Below are positions 29,166 through 59,948 of a stretch of 64,000 bases of DNA, piece after piece (the stretch's first letter is position 1; every line of letters starts with the position of its first letter). The notes under the pieces were generated by a model, which was given only the letters and a program-made list of their open reading frames with translations, searched no databases and was not told the DNA's origin. The DNA is from Thiomicrospira aerophila AL3 (GTDB lineage: Bacteria; Pseudomonadota; Gammaproteobacteria; Thiomicrospirales; Thiomicrospiraceae). The stretch spans positions 682,001 to 746,000 of the forward strand of contig NZ_CP007030.1 of assembly GCF_000227665.2 (NCBI RefSeq), read 5' to 3'. The translations under genes were made by a program, and so were the position numbers.

Positions 29166-31436
29166 ATGTTAAGCAAACCCGTTCAAATGTCACTTAGTAA
29201 CGCCTTTAGCGTTGCGCAAGAATACGAGCATGAATTTGTGACGCTTGAGCATCTATTGCTTGAGTTGCTCAATCTTCCTGATGTTCAGGAACTCCTTAAT
29301 GCCTGCGGCGCGCATATAGACAAGATAGAGCTTGATTTAGAACGCTATCTTGAGACCGAGCCCAAGCAACCTCAATCCAGTCAAGCACTTGAAATTCATC
29401 CGACTATGTCCTTTCAACGGGTGATTGAGCGGGCGATTTATATGGTGCAGTCAAATGGTCACAGTGAAGTACTGGGCGTGCATCTTATTGCGTCTATGTA
29501 TGCTGAACCTGATTCCCATGCGATTTACATCCTTGAATCGAATGGAGTTGAGCGTGTAGATGTGAAAAGCTATTTAGCCCACGGCGTAATTACTGATGAA
29601 TCACAACAAGATTTAAATCATGATTTGCAGCAACAAGCTGATCAAGAAGACGATGAATCAAATGAGTCGGCTATTACTAATTTTGCGTTGAACCTCAATA
29701 AACACGCACTCGAAGGACGCATGGATCCGATGATCGGTCGTCAGTGGGAACTGGATCGTACCCTAGAAATTCTGAGTCGTCGCCGTAAAAATAATCCATT
29801 GCTGGTAGGTGAGCCGGGTGTCGGTAAAACCTCGATTGCCGAAGGTTTAGCCTATAAAATTGTTCATGGTGAGGTGCCTGAATCCTTAAGTGATGCGGTG
29901 GTGTTTAGTTTGGATATGGGAGCCTTGTTAGCCGGCACCCGTTATCGCGGTGATTTTGAAAAACGCTTCAAATCCCTACTTAATGAATTAGCTCGTCAGC
30001 CTCATGCTATTTTATTTATTGATGAGATTCATACCATTATTGGTGCAGGAGCAGTGCAAGGTGGGGCAATGGATGCATCCAACCTTATGAAACCGGCGCT
30101 AGCTAATGGCCAGCTTCGCTGTATTGGTGCAACGACCTATGAGGAGTATCGTGGTATTTTTGAAAAAGATCGTGCATTGGCACGACGTTTCCAAAAAGTT
30201 GAGGTGCGTGAACCGACTGTACCTGAAACCATTCAAATTTTGAAAGGCTTGAAAGAACAGTTTGAATCTCATCACGACGTGAAATATACCCAGCCCGCGC
30301 TAAAAGCGGCGGCTGAACTCGCCGAGCGATATATTACGGACCGTCATTTGCCTGACAAGGCGATTGATGTGATTGATGAGGCCGGGGCGAAACAACGCTT
30401 AATGCCACCGAGTCGTCGTCGCAAACAAATCGGTGTTCCTGAAATTCAACAGGTCGTGGCTAATATTGCGCGTATTCCGATTGCCAGTATTACTCAAAAA
30501 GAACGCGATACTTTGTTTGATTTAGAGTCACATTTAAAACGAGTAGTATTTGGTCAAGACCATGCGGTCAGCCAAGTGGTCGCGGCGATAAAATTAGCCC
30601 GTTCAGGTTTAGCTCACCCTGATAAACCAAGCGGCTCTTTTTTGTTTGCCGGTCCTACCGGGGTGGGTAAAACAGAATTGACTCAGCAACTGGCCAAGCA
30701 TTTGGGAGTGGAGTTGGTTCGTTTTGATATGTCGGAATATATGGAGCGTCATACGGTGTCACGTTTAATTGGTGCACCGCCAGGCTATGTGGGGTTCGAT
30801 CAAGGCGGCTTGTTGACTGAAGCGGTAAATCGCCAACCCCATTCAGTGGTGTTGTTAGATGAAATTGAAAAGGCGCACCCTGATGTATTTAACCTGTTGT
30901 TGCAGGTGATGGATCACGGCACCTTGACCGACAATAACGGGCGTAAGGTTGATTTTCGAAATGTGGTGCTGATTATGACCTCGAATGTTGGGGCCGAGAT
31001 GATGTCGCGTTCCAGTATTGGCTTTACTGAACAAGACCACAGTCATGATTTTGAGTCAGAGCTGAAAAAAATGTTTAAGCCCGAATTCCGCAACCGTTTA
31101 GATGCGGTGATTCAGTTTAATCGATTAAGTGAAGCTTCAATGGGCTCAGTGGTGAATAAGTTTATTTTTGCCCTTGAACAAACCTTATCTGAGAAGAAGG
31201 TGTCGTTGGTTTTAGATAATGATGCTCGCGACTGGTTGGCAAAAAAAGGTTTTGACCCATTGATGGGCGCGCGACCTATGGCTCGTCTTATTCAACAACA
31301 GGTTAAACAGCCGTTGGCTGAGTTGCTCTTGTTTGGTGATTTACAACAGGGTGGGGCGGTTAGAATTAAGCTTGATAAGGCGAGCGATAGTTTAAGTTTA
31401 GAAGCCGAATCGGCGAAGCAATTAGCGGATGCCTAA
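29166..31436 (+). CDS. clpA: ATP-dependent Clp protease ATP-binding subunit ClpA
   Basis: A 756-residue AAA+ unfoldase, close to E. coli ClpA (758). It has an N-terminal ClpS-binding repeat domain (residues 1-150) and two ATPase modules: Walker A G-E-P-G-V-G-K-T with Lys221 and G-P-T-G-V-G-K-T with Lys502, nearly the E. coli positions. I-G-F near residue 620 is the ClpP-docking tripeptide in the I-G-F-T-E-Q loop. The open frame extends into clpS, but the ATG at 29166 gives the right N-terminus. A strong terminator follows. Confidence 0.97.
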   Translation: MLSKPVQMSLSNAFSVAQEYEHEFVTLEHLLLELLNLPDVQELLNACGAHIDKIELDLERYLETEPKQPQSSQALEIHPTMSFQRVIERAIYMVQSNGHSEVLGVHLIASMYAEPDSHAIYILESNGVERVDVKSYLAHGVITDESQQDLNHDLQQQADQEDDESNESAITNFALNLNKHALEGRMDPMIGRQWELDRTLEILSRRRKNNPLLVGEPGVGKTSIAEGLAYKIVHGEVPESLSDAVVFSLDMGALLAGTRYRGDFEKRFKSLLNELARQPHAILFIDEIHTIIGAGAVQGGAMDASNLMKPALANGQLRCIGATTYEEYRGIFEKDRALARRFQKVEVREPTVPETIQILKGLKEQFESHHDVKYTQPALKAAAELAERYITDRHLPDKAIDVIDEAGAKQRLMPPSRRRKQIGVPEIQQVVANIARIPIASITQKERDTLFDLESHLKRVVFGQDHAVSQVVAAIKLARSGLAHPDKPSGSFLFAGPTGVGKTELTQQLAKHLGVELVRFDMSEYMERHTVSRLIGAPPGYVGFDQGGLLTEAVNRQPHSVVLLDEIEKAHPDVFNLLLQVMDHGTLTDNNGRKVDFRNVVLIMTSNVGAEMMSRSSIGFTEQDHSHDFESELKKMFKPEFRNRLDAVIQFNRLSEASMGSVVNKFIFALEQTLSEKKVSLVLDNDARDWLAKKGFDPLMGARPMARLIQQQVKQPLAELLLFGDLQQGGAVRIKLDKASDSLSLEAESAKQLADA

Positions 31437-31453
31437 TCTTGGCATGACGTGAT

Positions 31454-31481
31454 AAAAAACCCAGCATTTGCTGGGTTTTTT
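31454..31481. terminator. Bidirectional intrinsic terminator (clpA / rhodanese gene)
   Basis: An A-tract, CCCAGCA, a two-base spacer, TGCTGGG and a T-tract form a perfect stem with runs on both sides. It should terminate clpA rightward and the rhodanese gene leftward. Confidence 0.9.
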
Positions 31482-31514
31482 ATTTGGACTAAACAAACTA
31501 AACGAAGCGTCTGC

Positions 31515-32150
31515 TTATTCGTAAGTTACACCGTATTTTTTGAAATAGACAATTTCAGGGTCAATGTCGTAGGTCCATGGCATGCCAGAGTTTTTCCAGC
31601 CGTCAATCAAACGAAAGCCTTTTTTGTCGCCTTCACGAACCACGCCACCTTCAAAACCACCTAGCAGTAGGTAAACATTTTTGTAACCGTACTGGTCTAA
31701 AATGCGCGCCATCGGGGCAGCACGCTCTGATGCAGAACGACACATAATAATAAATTTGCTATTTTGGTCGGCTCCTAAGTCCATCAAGCGTTCTTCAAAT
31801 TCACCAATCCAGTTTGGATGTGGCACAGGCATATAACGTGGCATATTTTGCACGGTGTCCATTTGCGAGTAATCAAACATCACTGAAGGCAGCATGATTT
31901 TAGCCAAGGGCGAATAGCCAACAAACATCCATTCTTCCGGTGTACGTACATCCACTAAGAAGGCATTATCATCAGAGTTAATCATCTCATAAGCTTGTTC
32001 AGGTGAAATATATAAACCCTGTGGAATTTGGTGTGATTCACGTTCTGGCGCAGGCGCTGGCGAGTTAGGCAATGCATTGGCCATTAGGTTAGCGGATGTG
32101 ATCATACCGGCAGATAATAGCAGGCCTGCTAAGGCGTTTTTAAGTTTCAT
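31515..32150 (-). CDS. Periplasmic rhodanese-domain protein
   Basis: A 211-residue protein with a Sec signal peptide (residues 1-26, ending A-N-A) and one rhodanese domain. The active-site loop is C-R-S-A-S-E-R with Cys137, which would carry a persulfide, and L-V-D-V-R-T-P-E-E-W near residue 65 is the conserved CH2-type motif. Periplasmic single rhodaneses take part in sulfur or cyanide metabolism; the acceptor is unknown. The gene is monocistronic: it has its own sigma70 promoter with a palindromic operator and a terminator, so expression is probably switched by a sulfur- or redox-sensing repressor. That regulator is not encoded in the window. Confidence 0.88.
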   Translation of the reverse strand: MKLKNALAGLLLSAGMITSANLMANALPNSPAPAPERESHQIPQGLYISPEQAYEMINSDDNAFLVDVRTPEEWMFVGYSPLAKIMLPSVMFDYSQMDTVQNMPRYMPVPHPNWIGEFEERLMDLGADQNSKFIIMCRSASERAAPMARILDQYGYKNVYLLLGGFEGGVVREGDKKGFRLIDGWKNSGMPWTYDIDPEIVYFKKYGVTYE

Positions 32151-32227
32151 TGTGCGAATCCTTATAGGTAAAGCGATTAAAAGTAATTAAAAAACAACTG
32201 CTTGCAATGTTTTTTATATTGCTTAAA

Positions 32228-32256
32228 AGTATAAGCATTTGCTTATATCTAGTCAA
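32228..32256 (-). promoter_or_regulatory. Sigma70 promoter with palindromic operator for the rhodanese gene
   Basis: On the minus strand TTGACT (32256-32251) and TATACT (32233-32228) are spaced by exactly 17 bases. The palindrome TATAAGCATTTGCTTATA (32230-32247, 8-base arms with a 2-base centre, written on the plus strand) fills the spacer and overlaps the -10. A further TTGCTTA half-site lies at 32219-32225. This geometry is classic for repressor binding. Confidence 0.75.
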
Positions 32257-32281
32257 GGTTTTTCAACCTCAGACCTAGCAC

Positions 32282-33223
32282 CTAGTTCGAACCAGCTGCA
32301 CGACCTTGTAACCCACCACTATGGTAGAGAATGATCTTGCTGTATTCGGGGAAGCAGGCCTGCTGAAGCAGTGTATCAAAAGCATGGATCAGTTTCGCGG
32401 TGTAAATTGGGTCGAGCTGCAGTTGATGCGCTTGTTCAAAAAGCTGCTGGGTGGCGATAATGTCAGGCGTGGTTTTGCCATAACCGCCACCATGAAACGC
32501 AACCTTGCCAGCCTGACTTAATAGCTGCCAATTAGTCTGCTGCTGGCCAATCCAAGCGGCAATTTGGGGCATTAAATAATCCGCTTGTTTTAAACTCGCA
32601 ATGCCCCATATCTGTTTCTCCGGTGCGGCTTTAGCCAGGCCTGCTAGGGTCGCACCGGTGCCCACTGCACAGAGTAGATGCGTCCAATCGGGGCATTGCT
32701 GATTAATTTGTTGGATTACATCGCGCATCGCGCTTACGGCTAACGCATTACTGCCGCCTTCTGGAATGCAATAATAATCAGGGTATTGGCTTTGTAGCTG
32801 CGCTAACCAATCGGCATCATGACGGCAGCGGTATTGCTGGCGACTCACAAATTTAAACGCCATGCCTAGTTGCGCGGCGTGGATCAGTGTAGTTGACCAT
32901 GCTTGGTGCTGCGCCAGTTCATCACCGCGAATAATGCCAACTGATTTCATGTTGCAGGCCGCAGCCGCCGCGGCTGTCGCAGCAATATGGTTAGAATAGG
33001 CGCCTCCGAAAGTCAGCAGGCCTGCAAAGCCGGCTTGTTGTGCTGCGAGAATATTGTGGCGCAATTTATGCCATTTATTGCCCTGAATGAGCGGGTGATT
33101 AAGATCATCACGCTTAATCCAGGCCTGCTGGTGCGGACCTAAGCTCGACCAGGTCACCGGTTGCAAGGGCGTCATGCGGGGCTGAGTCAAAACTTGTTTG
33201 AGACTGAAAGGGGTTTGATACAA
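32282..33223 (-). CDS. PLP-dependent ACC deaminase/D-cysteine desulfhydrase family protein
   Basis: A tryptophan-synthase-beta-fold PLP enzyme of about 313 residues. The Schiff-base Lys lies in L-I-Q-G-N-K-W-H-K, and W-I-K-R-D-D-L-N-H-P, F-G-G-A-Y-S-N-H and the phosphate loop A-V-G-T-G-A-T-L-A-G are family signatures. Members degrade D-cysteine or 1-aminocyclopropane-1-carboxylate; which one is not decidable here. The start is uncertain: the TTG at 33223 follows AGGTG, an ATG at 33175 lies within family-conserved sequence, and the open frame reaches 33277, overlapping the divergent Lon-like gene. Confidence 0.75.
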   Translation of the reverse strand: MYQTPFSLKQVLTQPRMTPLQPVTWSSLGPHQQAWIKRDDLNHPLIQGNKWHKLRHNILAAQQAGFAGLLTFGGAYSNHIAATAAAAAACNMKSVGIIRGDELAQHQAWSTTLIHAAQLGMAFKFVSRQQYRCRHDADWLAQLQSQYPDYYCIPEGGSNALAVSAMRDVIQQINQQCPDWTHLLCAVGTGATLAGLAKAAPEKQIWGIASLKQADYLMPQIAAWIGQQQTNWQLLSQAGKVAFHGGGYGKTTPDIIATQQLFEQAHQLQLDPIYTAKLIHAFDTLLQQACFPEYSKIILYHSGGLQGRAAGSN

Positions 33224-33224
33224 T
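33194..33224 (+). promoter_or_regulatory. Possible promoter of the Lon-like protease gene
   Basis: TACAAT at 33219-33224 is a good -10. Candidate -35 boxes are TTGTTT at 33194 (19-base spacer) or TTGAGA at 33198 (15-base spacer); neither spacing is ideal. Transcription would begin about 25 bases before the ATG. Confidence 0.3.
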
Positions 33225-33253
33225 ACGCACCTATTTATTGAGTGGACATTCGC

Positions 33254-35662
33254 ATGCAAAAACTTCGTGTAGACCAACTATACCGCCAAACCCAGATTGA
33301 TACCGATGCTTTTGAAAAAAATGAAACCGGTGCTGAAGCGTTTATGCAACGTTTTCATCCGCGCGCTTATCAATCGCTCAACTTTGGTTTGCACTTAAAG
33401 CGTAATCATAATCATATTTTTATTATGGGGGAACCTGGCGTGGGGCGCATTGGCATGACCAAAGCCTTGCTCAATAAAGCGGCGGCCGCTAAACCTATGC
33501 CCGATGATGTGGTCTTGGTGGCGGATTTAAAAGAGCCGCCTAAAACCCGTTATCTGTATTTTCCGGCTGGCCAAGGCCATGAATTTAAAGTCGCTATTGA
33601 GCAATTTATAGCCCAGCTAAAACATCAATTGCCGCTCGTGTTTGATGGTCATGGCTACCAATTGCGCTCGCAACAATTAGAGCGAAAAATGGCGGCGGAA
33701 CAAGAAGAAGTACTCCGTCCGGCTTTTGAATTGGCTGAGCAACTCAGCATCGATATTTTACAGACCGAAAACAACTTTGTGTTGCATGCGATTGTTGATG
33801 GCAAAAAAATGCGTTTGGCTGAGTTGAAGTCTTTGCCTGCAGAAGATCAAGCACGCTATACCGAAGCCTTAGACTTGGTGGAGGCGCAATTAAATGAAGG
33901 GTTAACCCGCTTTCCGACCATTCAGCACGAATTTATGGAAGAGGGCAAAAAACTCAATACCCAGGTGGCTGAAGAGCAGGTCACCCCACTGATTAAAAAG
34001 CTAAAAAGCCGTTTTGAAAATGAAGTCGTTGGGCAGTATTTAGATGATTTGGCCCAAGCGGTATTGGCTAAATTACACCTATTTTGGGATCAAAGTGCCG
34101 ATCAAGTGACGACCTCGAATAATGGTGGTTCAGGTGGCGGATCGGCTTCGCCCTTGGAAGAATTGATGCTCGATCAACAGGGTTTGAGCCAGTTTGGCGT
34201 TAACCTATTGGTTGATCATCGGGGTTTGGAGCACGCCCCGGTTATTTACGAGCAAAATGCGAGTTTGCCCAAGTTGTTTGGTTATGCCATTCAATCTGGT
34301 CATCAGGGTTTGGGGGGCGATACCTTAGGCTTGGCGATGAATCATCAAGCAGGCCTGCTGCAAAAAGCCAATGGCGGCTTTTTAATGTTGAGTATGCAAT
34401 CGATCTTAAAAGATCCTGAAATTTGGTCGAGTTTAAAAGCCGCGTTGATGTCGCGTCAACTGAGTTTTGATGTGCCATCAACCAATAGTGTGGTGCCTTA
34501 TCACTTACCAGATTTTCCGCTTAATGTCACTTTAGTGCTGCTAGGCCAAGCAGCGCATTTCTATGCACTGCAGGAAATTGATGCCCAATTTAGCCGTTTG
34601 TTTAAAGTGCAGGTGGAGTTTGAAGTTGAGCTAGACCGTACCCCAGAGCATGAGTTGGCGTTGGTGCAACAACTTGCTAGTGAAGTGGCTAACTGGGATG
34701 ATTTGCCGGTTGAGCTGTCAGCTTACGAGCGCTTAACCGAGTATGCGTCACGTTTAGCCGAAGATAAAAACCGACTTTACACCAATAAAGCCATTTTGCG
34801 TGATGTACTGGCGGAAGCCAATGCATTTGCGCGTGCTAAAGGGGCGTCGCAGGTCACGCGTGATACAGTCGAGGCCACTATTGCGCAGCGTGAATTTCAC
34901 ACTGGTTTGATGGAAGATTATTATCATCGCGCGATTATTGAACAACAGGTATTAATTTCTTTAACCGGTGAGCATATTGGGCAAGTCAACGGTCTGACCG
35001 TGATGACAGTCGGTCGTCAGTCTTTTGGTCAGCCAGTGCGCATTACCGCGCAAGCGTCTGCGGGTGATGAAGGCGTTGTGGATATTGAACGCGAAATTGA
35101 AATGGCCGGGCCGATTCACTCTAAAGGTATGTTGATTTTATCTGGCTATGTACGTGGTCGTTATATGCGTTATCGTGCGCTCGGCTTTAGTGCGTCGATT
35201 GTGATTGAGCAAACCTACGATGGTATTGAGGGTGATAGTGCATCGTCACCGGAACTCTATGCACTGTTATCAGCGATTGCGCAAGTACCTATGCGTCAAG
35301 ACCTAGCCGTGACCGGCTCGGTCAATCAGTTTGGTGAAATTCAGCCAGTCGGTGGCATTAATGAAAAAATTGAAGGCTTTTTTAAGGTTTGCAAAGCGCG
35401 CGGATTAACCGGTCAGCAAGGGGTAGTGATTCCACAAGCCAATGTGCGTCATTTAATGTTAAATGCGGAAGTGCGTGATGCGGTTGATCAGGGCGTGTTT
35501 CATATTTACGCCATTGAACATGTTGACGAAGGGCTGGCTTTACTGAGCAATCTTGAGGTTGGGGAGCTAAACGAGGAAGGTCACTATCCTAGCCATAGCT
35601 TTAACGGACACTTACTGCAAGCATTAGAACGGATGAATGAAAAGCCAAGCGACAGTGATTAA
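33254..35662 (+). CDS. Lon-like ATP-dependent protease (S16, LonB/YcbZ type)
   Basis: An 802-residue protein of the COG1067 Lon-related group. The N-terminal nucleotide-binding loop reads G-E-P-G-V-G-R-I-G-M-T at residues 59-69, with Arg where the Walker A Lys is expected. The L-Q-K-A-N-G-G-F-L-M-L segment, a Walker B-like feature of this group, lies near 375. The protease domain has Ser662 (G-D-S-A-S-S) and Lys705 (G-G-I-N-E-K-I), 43 residues apart exactly as in E. coli Lon (679/722), so it should be active. There is no classical Lon substrate-binding domain. A GTG at 33242 is an alternative start. Confidence 0.9.
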   Translation: MQKLRVDQLYRQTQIDTDAFEKNETGAEAFMQRFHPRAYQSLNFGLHLKRNHNHIFIMGEPGVGRIGMTKALLNKAAAAKPMPDDVVLVADLKEPPKTRYLYFPAGQGHEFKVAIEQFIAQLKHQLPLVFDGHGYQLRSQQLERKMAAEQEEVLRPAFELAEQLSIDILQTENNFVLHAIVDGKKMRLAELKSLPAEDQARYTEALDLVEAQLNEGLTRFPTIQHEFMEEGKKLNTQVAEEQVTPLIKKLKSRFENEVVGQYLDDLAQAVLAKLHLFWDQSADQVTTSNNGGSGGGSASPLEELMLDQQGLSQFGVNLLVDHRGLEHAPVIYEQNASLPKLFGYAIQSGHQGLGGDTLGLAMNHQAGLLQKANGGFLMLSMQSILKDPEIWSSLKAALMSRQLSFDVPSTNSVVPYHLPDFPLNVTLVLLGQAAHFYALQEIDAQFSRLFKVQVEFEVELDRTPEHELALVQQLASEVANWDDLPVELSAYERLTEYASRLAEDKNRLYTNKAILRDVLAEANAFARAKGASQVTRDTVEATIAQREFHTGLMEDYYHRAIIEQQVLISLTGEHIGQVNGLTVMTVGRQSFGQPVRITAQASAGDEGVVDIEREIEMAGPIHSKGMLILSGYVRGRYMRYRALGFSASIVIEQTYDGIEGDSASSPELYALLSAIAQVPMRQDLAVTGSVNQFGEIQPVGGINEKIEGFFKVCKARGLTGQQGVVIPQANVRHLMLNAEVRDAVDQGVFHIYAIEHVDEGLALLSNLEVGELNEEGHYPSHSFNGHLLQALERMNEKPSDSD

Positions 35663-59614: not shown

Positions 59615-59830
59615 TTAAACTTCACGTTTGGTGAAAGGTGAACCATGCTTTAAACCTAGTTTTCTCAATACAAGTACCATTGGGCAGAAGCCAGTTAAAC
59701 TTGAGAAAATTAAGTTTGCGCCAACAAATGCGGTTAAAAAGAACCAGTAAGGGTGAAACATTAAGCCTAAAAACAAGCTAACTAACACCATGGTGCCTGC
59801 TACCATCAATACGATACGTTCAATGTTCAT
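59615..59830 (-). CDS. DUF2892 small membrane protein
   Basis: A 71-residue protein with two membrane helices (residues 5-24 and 29-50), followed by G-F-C-P-M-V-L-V-L-R-K-L-G. This is the DUF2892 pattern, also seen as the membrane tail of YgaP-type rhodaneses. The conserved G-F-C-P motif supports the family. The function is not established; related proteins are linked to sulfur or cyanide handling. It lies alone, convergent with yheS. Confidence 0.85.
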   Translation of the reverse strand: MNIERIVLMVAGTMVLVSLFLGLMFHPYWFFLTAFVGANLIFSSLTGFCPMVLVLRKLGLKHGSPFTKREV

Positions 59831-59948
59831 TTAATTCTCCTCGATAATGTTATTAAATGCTGACCTGGTTATGTTAACGGATTTAGCGTGTAAAAGCGAT
59901 GACTAATTATTAGAAAAAACTAATATGTTTTTTCAAGATACGCTGGTC

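Follow-up and report, generated by a model that had tools for sequence, protein, structure and literature searches.

A conserved palindrome in the rhodanese promoter of Thiomicrospira aerophila is a probable operator of an unlinked BigR-like ArsR repressor

Introduction

The closest described counterparts of the element analyzed here, a palindrome in the promoter of a rhodanese gene on a 64 000-nucleotide stretch of the Thiomicrospira aerophila AL3 genome (the window, by which the whole stretch is meant), are found among repressors of the ArsR type. In Escherichia coli, the operon of the rhodanese YgaP is repressed by the ArsR protein YgaV, in which two cysteines are conserved, and the operator of SqrR and YgaV is described as ATTC-N8-GAAT, with a similar sequence in the E. 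coli footprint (PMC9774250). SoxR and sHdrR of Hyphomicrobium denitrificans are ArsR repressors of the sulfane-sulfur kind and bind to several sulfur promoters, those of sox among them (PMC10451225, PMC12423496); the genes on which such regulators seem to act are sqr, sox, pdo, rhodanese, and resistance-nodulation-division (RND) pump genes (PMC12423496). NolR of Sinorhizobium reads (A/T)TTAG-N9-A(T/A), in which its Gln56 contacts adenine or thymine (PMC8960804), and the binding site of HlyU of Vibrio is TAATTCAGACTAAATTA (PMC4330345). The sensing of inorganic sulfur compounds by sulfur oxidizers is described as little known (PMC10451225), and among the open-licence papers searched, judged by their titles and the opening lines of their abstracts, we recognized no description of an ArsR regulon or operator of the type reported below, either for Thiomicrospira, Hydrogenovibrio, or Thiomicrorhabdus or for the vicinity of yibN.

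Here, we propose that the palindrome is probably the operator of a dimeric, winged-helix repressor of the ArsR type that is released by sulfur, the likeliest protein being a BigR/SqrR/YgaV-like ArsR that is not linked to the rhodanese gene. An earlier note on this DNA had guessed at an ArsR-type sulfur sensor that acts in trans, and this is the reading that is best supported, as many of the genes that share the motif are sulfur genes and the candidate regulator is unlinked. From sequence comparisons, we infer the binding of this protein to the site, the repression, and the release by persulfide or polysulfide. Genomes are designated by G-numbers and loci by L-numbers; G000 is the T. aerophila AL3 genome that holds the window (C1 is its contig), and G008 and G001 are the two nearest genomes that have the rhodanese gene. 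The family is Thiomicrospiraceae, for which most counts use 60 genomes and one motif scan uses 62.

Results

The palindrome is a conserved part of the rhodanese promoter

On the minus strand, positions 32256 to 32219 read TTGACT AGATATAAGCAAATGCT TATACT TTTAAGCAA. This direct reading confirmed the arrangement given in the earlier note, in which the two hexamers of a TTGACT-17-TATACT promoter are separated by a spacer that contains an 18-base palindrome overlapping the −10 element. The palindrome, TATAAGCATTTGCTTATA (32230–32247, 8-base arms and a 2-base center), overlaps 14 bases of the 17-base spacer and four of the six bases of the −10 element, and this placement favors repression at the rhodanese promoter. 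A promoter scan recovered the same hexamer pair (10/12 match), but the region 31400–33300 contained three promoter-like pairs versus a shuffle mean of 3.0, so the promoter call is based on conservation and not on consensus. The coordinates of these and the other features are collected in Table 1.

Table 1. Coordinates of the features discussed in the text (window positions unless given as genome:contig)
Feature	Position	Strand	Remarks
−35 element, TTGACT	32251..32256	−	TTGACN kept at equal distance in G008 and G001
−10 element, TATACT	32228..32233	−	Overlapped by the putative operator; identical in three species
Putative operator, 20-bp register ATATAAG-CAAATG-CTTATAC	32229..32248	minus-strand reading	Identical in three species; site class enriched family-wide
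Putatively regulated gene, 211-amino-acid protein with one rhodanese domain	31515..32150	−	Pfam PF00581, 48.1 bits
TTGCTTA half-site	32219..32225	+	Present; not kept in G008 or G001
Leader block AAAAAACATYGCAAGCANTTGTTTTTTAATTA, 32 bases	32184..32215	−	Conserved in three species almost to the degree of the operator
Second putative operator, TTATTAGAAAAAACTAATAT	59907..59926		Exact consensus match
YgaP-like transmembrane protein (DUF2892), 71 amino acids, putative target of the second operator	59615..59830	−	Pfam PF11127, 45.1 bits (cut-off 25.3)
Candidate (a), BigR/SqrR/YgaV-like ArsR, 103 amino acids	G000:C1:1710833-1711141		~1 Mb from the rhodanese gene, beside ctpA
Candidate (b), ArsR-rhodanese fusion, 216-amino-acid frame	G000:C1:550148-550795

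Taken alone, a single palindrome of this size is unremarkable, since the window contains 28 perfect inverted repeats with 8-base arms and gaps of 0–8 bases, whereas eight Markov simulations gave 12.5 on average. The exact 18-mer (with a free center) occurs once in the genome; with up to three mismatches there are 14 genome sites versus seven for the control. The earlier note had suggested a search for further copies and had taken the absence of any other copy as one half of what would speak against an operator. Related copies were found in other promoters, although the genome has no second copy that is identical letter for letter. G000, G008, and G001 share, without a single difference, a 21-base block, ATATAAGCAAATGCTTATACT, together with the TTGAC of the −35 element at the same spacing, and the flanking sequences mostly differ. 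Because this block is identical in three species and the site class is enriched across the family, the palindrome is real, a conserved site that is very probably a repressor switch. The frequency of such repeats in the window and the single exact copy in the genome would suit a chance palindrome in an AT-rich promoter, but the letter-for-letter conservation in three species and the recurrence at orthologous promoters and other sulfur genes in 60 genomes leave that explanation with next to no likelihood.

The earlier note also counted a TTGCTTA half-site as a further part of the operator. The heptamer is present in the sequence, but it is not conserved in G008 or G001 and is therefore probably a chance occurrence without function, so its proposed role was not upheld. 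The statement that no regulator gene is adjacent was borne out by the gene neighborhood, as no regulator was found among the genes that flank the rhodanese gene. We take these to be clpS-clpA-like genes on one side and a gene for a pyridoxal phosphate-dependent-like enzyme on the other. The N-terminus of the rhodanese protein looks like a signal peptide.

Sites of the same class recur at orthologous promoters and across the family

A match to the rhodanese protein was found in 43 of the 60 family genomes; within the genus, two of the nine genomes have none. Promoters were scanned at 30 loci of the 43 matching genomes, with the gene placed by tblastn and the same motif read backwards serving as the control. 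The site was present with at most one mismatch in 17 of the 30 and with at most two mismatches in 24 (one and four, respectively, for the control). Measured from the gene start that the alignment implies, all of these sites are 41–99 bases upstream, and the 17 with at most one mismatch are 43–99 bases upstream. In G003 and G007, the upstream gene is a different one and the promoter still contains ATATTAG-N6-[AC]TAATAT. When TATAAGCA-NN-TGCTTATA was searched with one mismatch allowed, sites were found in 22 of 62 family genomes and a control match in one.

The family consensus is ATATWAG-N6-CTWATAT. The form WTATWAG-N6-CTWATAW has 178 exact occurrences in the 60 genomes versus 17 control matches, and 58 of these genomes have at least one site. 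A subset of all family sites, comprising 115 core sites in 98 loci, was examined further; 101 of the 115 lie outside any retained open reading frame (ORF) of at least 60 amino acids, and a nearby gene start could be assigned in 86 of the 98 loci. According to this automatic assignment, the site precedes a gene for a TolC-type efflux protein, a YgaP-type protein, SoxB, a DUF302 protein, a rhodanese, SoxC, or an SQR-like protein in 52 of the 98 loci, so about half of the sites examined lie upstream of sulfur or efflux genes. The largest target cluster is OEP/TolC (27 loci), followed by YgaP-type transmembrane proteins, SoxB, and DUF302 (six each), rhodanese (five), and TsoY-type proteins (three). 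Targets that occur at single loci include SoxC, an SQR-like flavoprotein, a cbb3 oxidase subunit (ccoN), and, at L135, what we read as a single-domain rhodanese. For each named cluster, a representative was compared with Pfam or NCBIfam models. SoxC scored above its cut-off and the SQR-like protein below the model cut-off; the SoxB fragment of L117 is truncated by the end of the locus and for this reason reached 518.5, short of the cut-off of 550. Several promoters of the efflux (outer-membrane) genes, for example those of L193, L199, and L237, contain two operator copies that are 23–53 bases apart. At some loci, an alpha/beta hydrolase gene adjoins such paired sites.

The window contains a second site of this class (Table 1), upstream of a gene for a YgaP-like transmembrane protein, and the YgaP-like genes of G001 (L243) and G008 (L204) likewise have a site. 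The calling of regulon members in G000 was restricted to sites with zero or one mismatch. Those with a fitting gene are at the rhodanese gene, the YgaP-like gene, an operon headed by a TolC-type gene at 1803.5–1804.9 kb, in which apparent membrane-fusion and RND pump genes follow, and a DUF302 gene at 1807.0 kb, together with one-mismatch sites at an SQR-like gene (101.9 kb) and at SoxC (84.2 kb). Five further entries were listed at this threshold, four inside genes and one (1897650) without a clear meaning. Exact core sites are present at the YgaP-like, TolC, and DUF302 genes in both G001 and G008, at the SQR-like gene also in G001, and at SoxC also in G008. The SQR-like gene has a TTGAAT-17-TATAAT promoter that overlaps its site. 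In consensus promoter scans, nothing was found near the second site of the window, and at the TolC site pairs were found only on the strand opposite to the gene.

An unlinked BigR-like ArsR is the likeliest regulator

The earlier note had advised looking for genes of the BigR/SqrR/YgaV type. Such a gene, candidate (a), is indeed among the three PF01022 hits in G000. It is unlinked to the rhodanese gene, and its product has both sensing cysteines. The protein passes PF01022 (HTH_5; 51.2 bits versus a cut-off of 22) and NF033788 (85.9 versus 55), and it scores 66.4 bits on the NCBIfam BigR equivalog NF040642, for which the cut-off is 155; it is therefore termed BigR-like and not filed as BigR. 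Its best solved relatives include BigR, HlyU, YgaV, and NolR, with BigR (3pqj) at the top (E-value 9.4e-14). The ArsR protein of 6o8l and other entries, close behind 3pqj, is presumably SqrR. The pair of sensing cysteines, one in helix alpha-2 and one near the C-terminus, aligns with that of BigR and its relatives. Both of these cysteines and a third cysteine, located in the wing, are invariant in all 30 aligned family proteins. All 26 proteins from the wider class retain both sensing cysteines; 25 of them were retrieved with a string that itself requires the first cysteine and one (L313) was read separately; outside the family, the wing cysteine was seen in L304–L307 only.

The likely reading of the site by this protein was assessed against NolR. 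The regulator matches NolR 26–78 over 53 residues of its own; if the two stretches are paired residue by residue on the strength of their equal lengths, it would have Arg at the position of NolR Arg31 and Gln at that of NolR Gln56. The sequence ATTAG-N6-CTAAT contains the NolR consensus, and among the 190 half-sites of 95 distinct sites 105 are TTAG and 85 are TAAG. The window site has the TAAG form, which is one base off the NolR consensus (A for the second T of TTAG).

An orthologue of the regulator (at least 68% identity) is present in 58 of the 60 family genomes, and the two genomes that lack it are 82–84% complete; in the class-wide sample, an orthologue at an E-value of 1e-25 or better was found in 159 of 369 genomes. 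Its surroundings differ inside and outside the family. All 30 family loci have ctpA near the regulator and none has a rhodanese or glutaredoxin neighbor. By contrast, of the 26 loci examined from outside the family, 22 have a gene with a rhodanese domain no more than ~1.5 kb away and 18 have a glutaredoxin gene. At L304–L329, which are from Gammaproteobacteria outside the family, the rhodanese near the regulator is a membrane rhodanese; the other neighbors are presumably secB, phosphoglycerate mutase, and envC-like or ctpA genes. The half-site ATATTAG/CTAATAT occurs upstream of nine of 25 class regulator genes (shuffle mean 1.4; 0/300 shuffles reach nine), whereas ATATAAG and the −10-like control string GTAATAT occur at 0/25 each. 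An exact full site is located ~70 bases upstream of the regulator in L328. The relaxed full palindrome, T[AT]AG-N6-CT[AT]A, was no more frequent upstream of regulators in other orders than the control (2/25 each). In many of the 30 regulator promoters of L136–L165, a recurring block like CATTATAAnTnAnnTTTnnGTGACA was seen by eye upstream of a TTAGAAT-like −10 element.

Another transcription factor, for example one of the MarR type or a different winged-helix protein, could bind the site and still control a sulfur regulon. The candidate was chosen from a single Pfam family (PF01022, three genome hits), and MarR proteins can also sense sulfane sulfur (PMC11211675). We nevertheless consider this unlikely, because the distribution of the ArsR candidate, its rhodanese context elsewhere, its cysteine pair, and its NolR-like alignment all fit.

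The two other ArsR proteins of G000 are poorer candidates. The ArsR-rhodanese fusion, candidate (b), is thematically apt, and a sulfur-linked ArsR of this kind is detected by PF01022 in eight of the nine genus genomes (none is listed for G007). The partner gene in its operon presumably encodes a metallo-hydrolase of the persulfide dioxygenase type. However, this operon carries a palindrome of its own, TATTCAAC-N6-GTTGAATA, that is not shared by the rhodanese site, and the fusion as binder was rejected on this ground. The palindrome was seen in all five genus loci whose first operon gene was located (the gene was not located in two further loci), has copies at C1:551620-551641 and 554144-554165 in G000, and recurs, when up to one mismatch is allowed, in 25 of the 60 family genomes. 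In 24 of these 25 loci, grouped by eye, it adjoins the fusion gene or its usual neighbors (metallo-hydrolase, MFS, hydrolase, and MoxR). As judged by eye, the fusion also lacks the alpha-2 cysteine and the Gln56 equivalent, and it is an improbable owner of the rhodanese operator. In its own right, its palindrome marks a local regulon of the fusion, dioxygenase-type metallo-hydrolase, MFS transporter, hydrolase, and MoxR-like genes.

The third ArsR of the genome, candidate (c), is of the arsenic type with a CVCEL motif (G000:C1:1754.4 kb) and lies between what we take to be GAPDH-like and YeeE-type transporter genes. No site with at most two mismatches was found within 3.1 kb around this gene, and several targets of the motif are sulfur genes, with no arsenic gene seen among them; it is thus a very remote contender for the site.

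Several results weigh against assigning the palindrome to the unlinked BigR-like ArsR, or against the breadth of its regulon. Its sequence, TWAG-N6-CTWA, differs from the ATTC-N8-GAAT described for SqrR and YgaV. When two mismatches are allowed, the motif shows no excess in G000 (112 sites versus 111 for the control). The promoters of the family regulators contain the half-site at a background level (2/30 versus a shuffle mean of 1.8) and so give no clue to autoregulation, and the half-site test in the class was a post hoc choice that left out L313, included some close relatives, and used a string in which TAATAT is itself −10-like. Of the 98 loci, 43 fall outside any named sulfur or efflux cluster, and some of the assigned target genes have no evident sulfur link. 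No fixed −35 register was found across 81 sites, where the two best offsets reach 13/81, so blocking by exactly the geometry of the rhodanese promoter is not general. Finally, the SoxB-cluster sites are in six loci of other genera. Of nine soxB promoters in the genus of T. aerophila, none has a site when one mismatch is allowed, and one, in G008, has a site with two; by this comparison, SoxB does not belong to the targets in the genus.

Other features

The leader block of the rhodanese gene has equivalents in L072 and L069. It contains a weak inverted repeat, AAAAAACA...TGTTTTTT, and, as noted by eye, a degenerate operator-like core, CAAGCA-NN-TGTTTT, located ~38–42 bases downstream of the operator center. 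A leader hairpin was not supported, as RNA folding was no better than for shuffled sequences (z −0.50 to −0.60). Between clpA and the rhodanese gene (31458–31485), an inverted repeat, AAACCCAGCATTTGCTGGGTTT, that is absent from the list of the scanning tool resembles a two-way terminator; it shares AGCATTTGCT with the operator by coincidence. Elsewhere in the genome, L007 (G000:C1:1358716-1361733) contains short direct repeats, GAGCTGCCTGTGCGGCAGCGAAC, separated by spacers that differ from one another, and is apparently an array of clustered regularly interspaced short palindromic repeats (CRISPR), which was noticed through ORFs that repeat SELPVRQRT.

Discussion

The unlinked BigR-like ArsR of T. 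aerophila is another member of the known sulfane-sulfur ArsR kind and differs from the described members in its proposed operator, its unlinked targets, and its wing cysteine. Its closest solved relative is BigR (Xylella, Acinetobacter) and its cysteine pair aligns with those of BigR and SqrR (Rhodobacter capsulatus), although it stays below the BigR equivalog cut-off and its proposed operator is unlike that of SqrR. The likeness to YgaV and YgaP extends to the second window target, whose transmembrane domain is the one that takes its name from YgaP (PF11127). However, the E. coli regulator and its target share one operon, whereas here they are unlinked, the rhodanese and the YgaP-type domain are encoded by separate genes, and the wing cysteine is extra relative to YgaV. 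The SoxR and sHdrR genes lie within the sulfur-oxidation region that their products bind, in contrast to the regulator gene described here, which is located beside ctpA- and murG-like genes. HlyU is a related ArsR whose site contains a CTAA half-site, but in the present case the site lies within the promoter. NolR controls nodulation; it has no cysteine (PMC8960804).

In the mechanism that we propose, a repressor dimer would cover the −35/−10 spacer and the −10 element in the absence of reactive sulfur and thereby block RNA polymerase. A persulfide or polysulfide would then bridge the alpha-2 and C-terminal cysteines and the repressor would release the DNA, so that the rhodanese would be made alongside the YgaP-type membrane protein, the TolC-led RND pump, the DUF302 protein, the SQR-like flavoprotein, and SoxC.

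It is possible, though on balance doubtful, that a single unlinked, persulfide-sensing repressor with a wing cysteine runs a core sulfur regulon of the Thiomicrospiraceae and is descended from a local gammaproteobacterial arsR-rhodanese-glutaredoxin cluster that lost its local targets. If so, the regulon would span persulfide handling, RND efflux, parts of Sox, sulfide oxidation, and, in some species, a terminal oxidase; a local switch would have become a dispersed one, and, at the surface that contacts DNA, the wing cysteine may provide a second input. For a family of sulfur-oxidizing Gammaproteobacteria, sequence comparison by itself yields a list of targets together with a defined operator and a candidate repressor, and it suggests a route by which a local ArsR switch may become an unlinked regulator.
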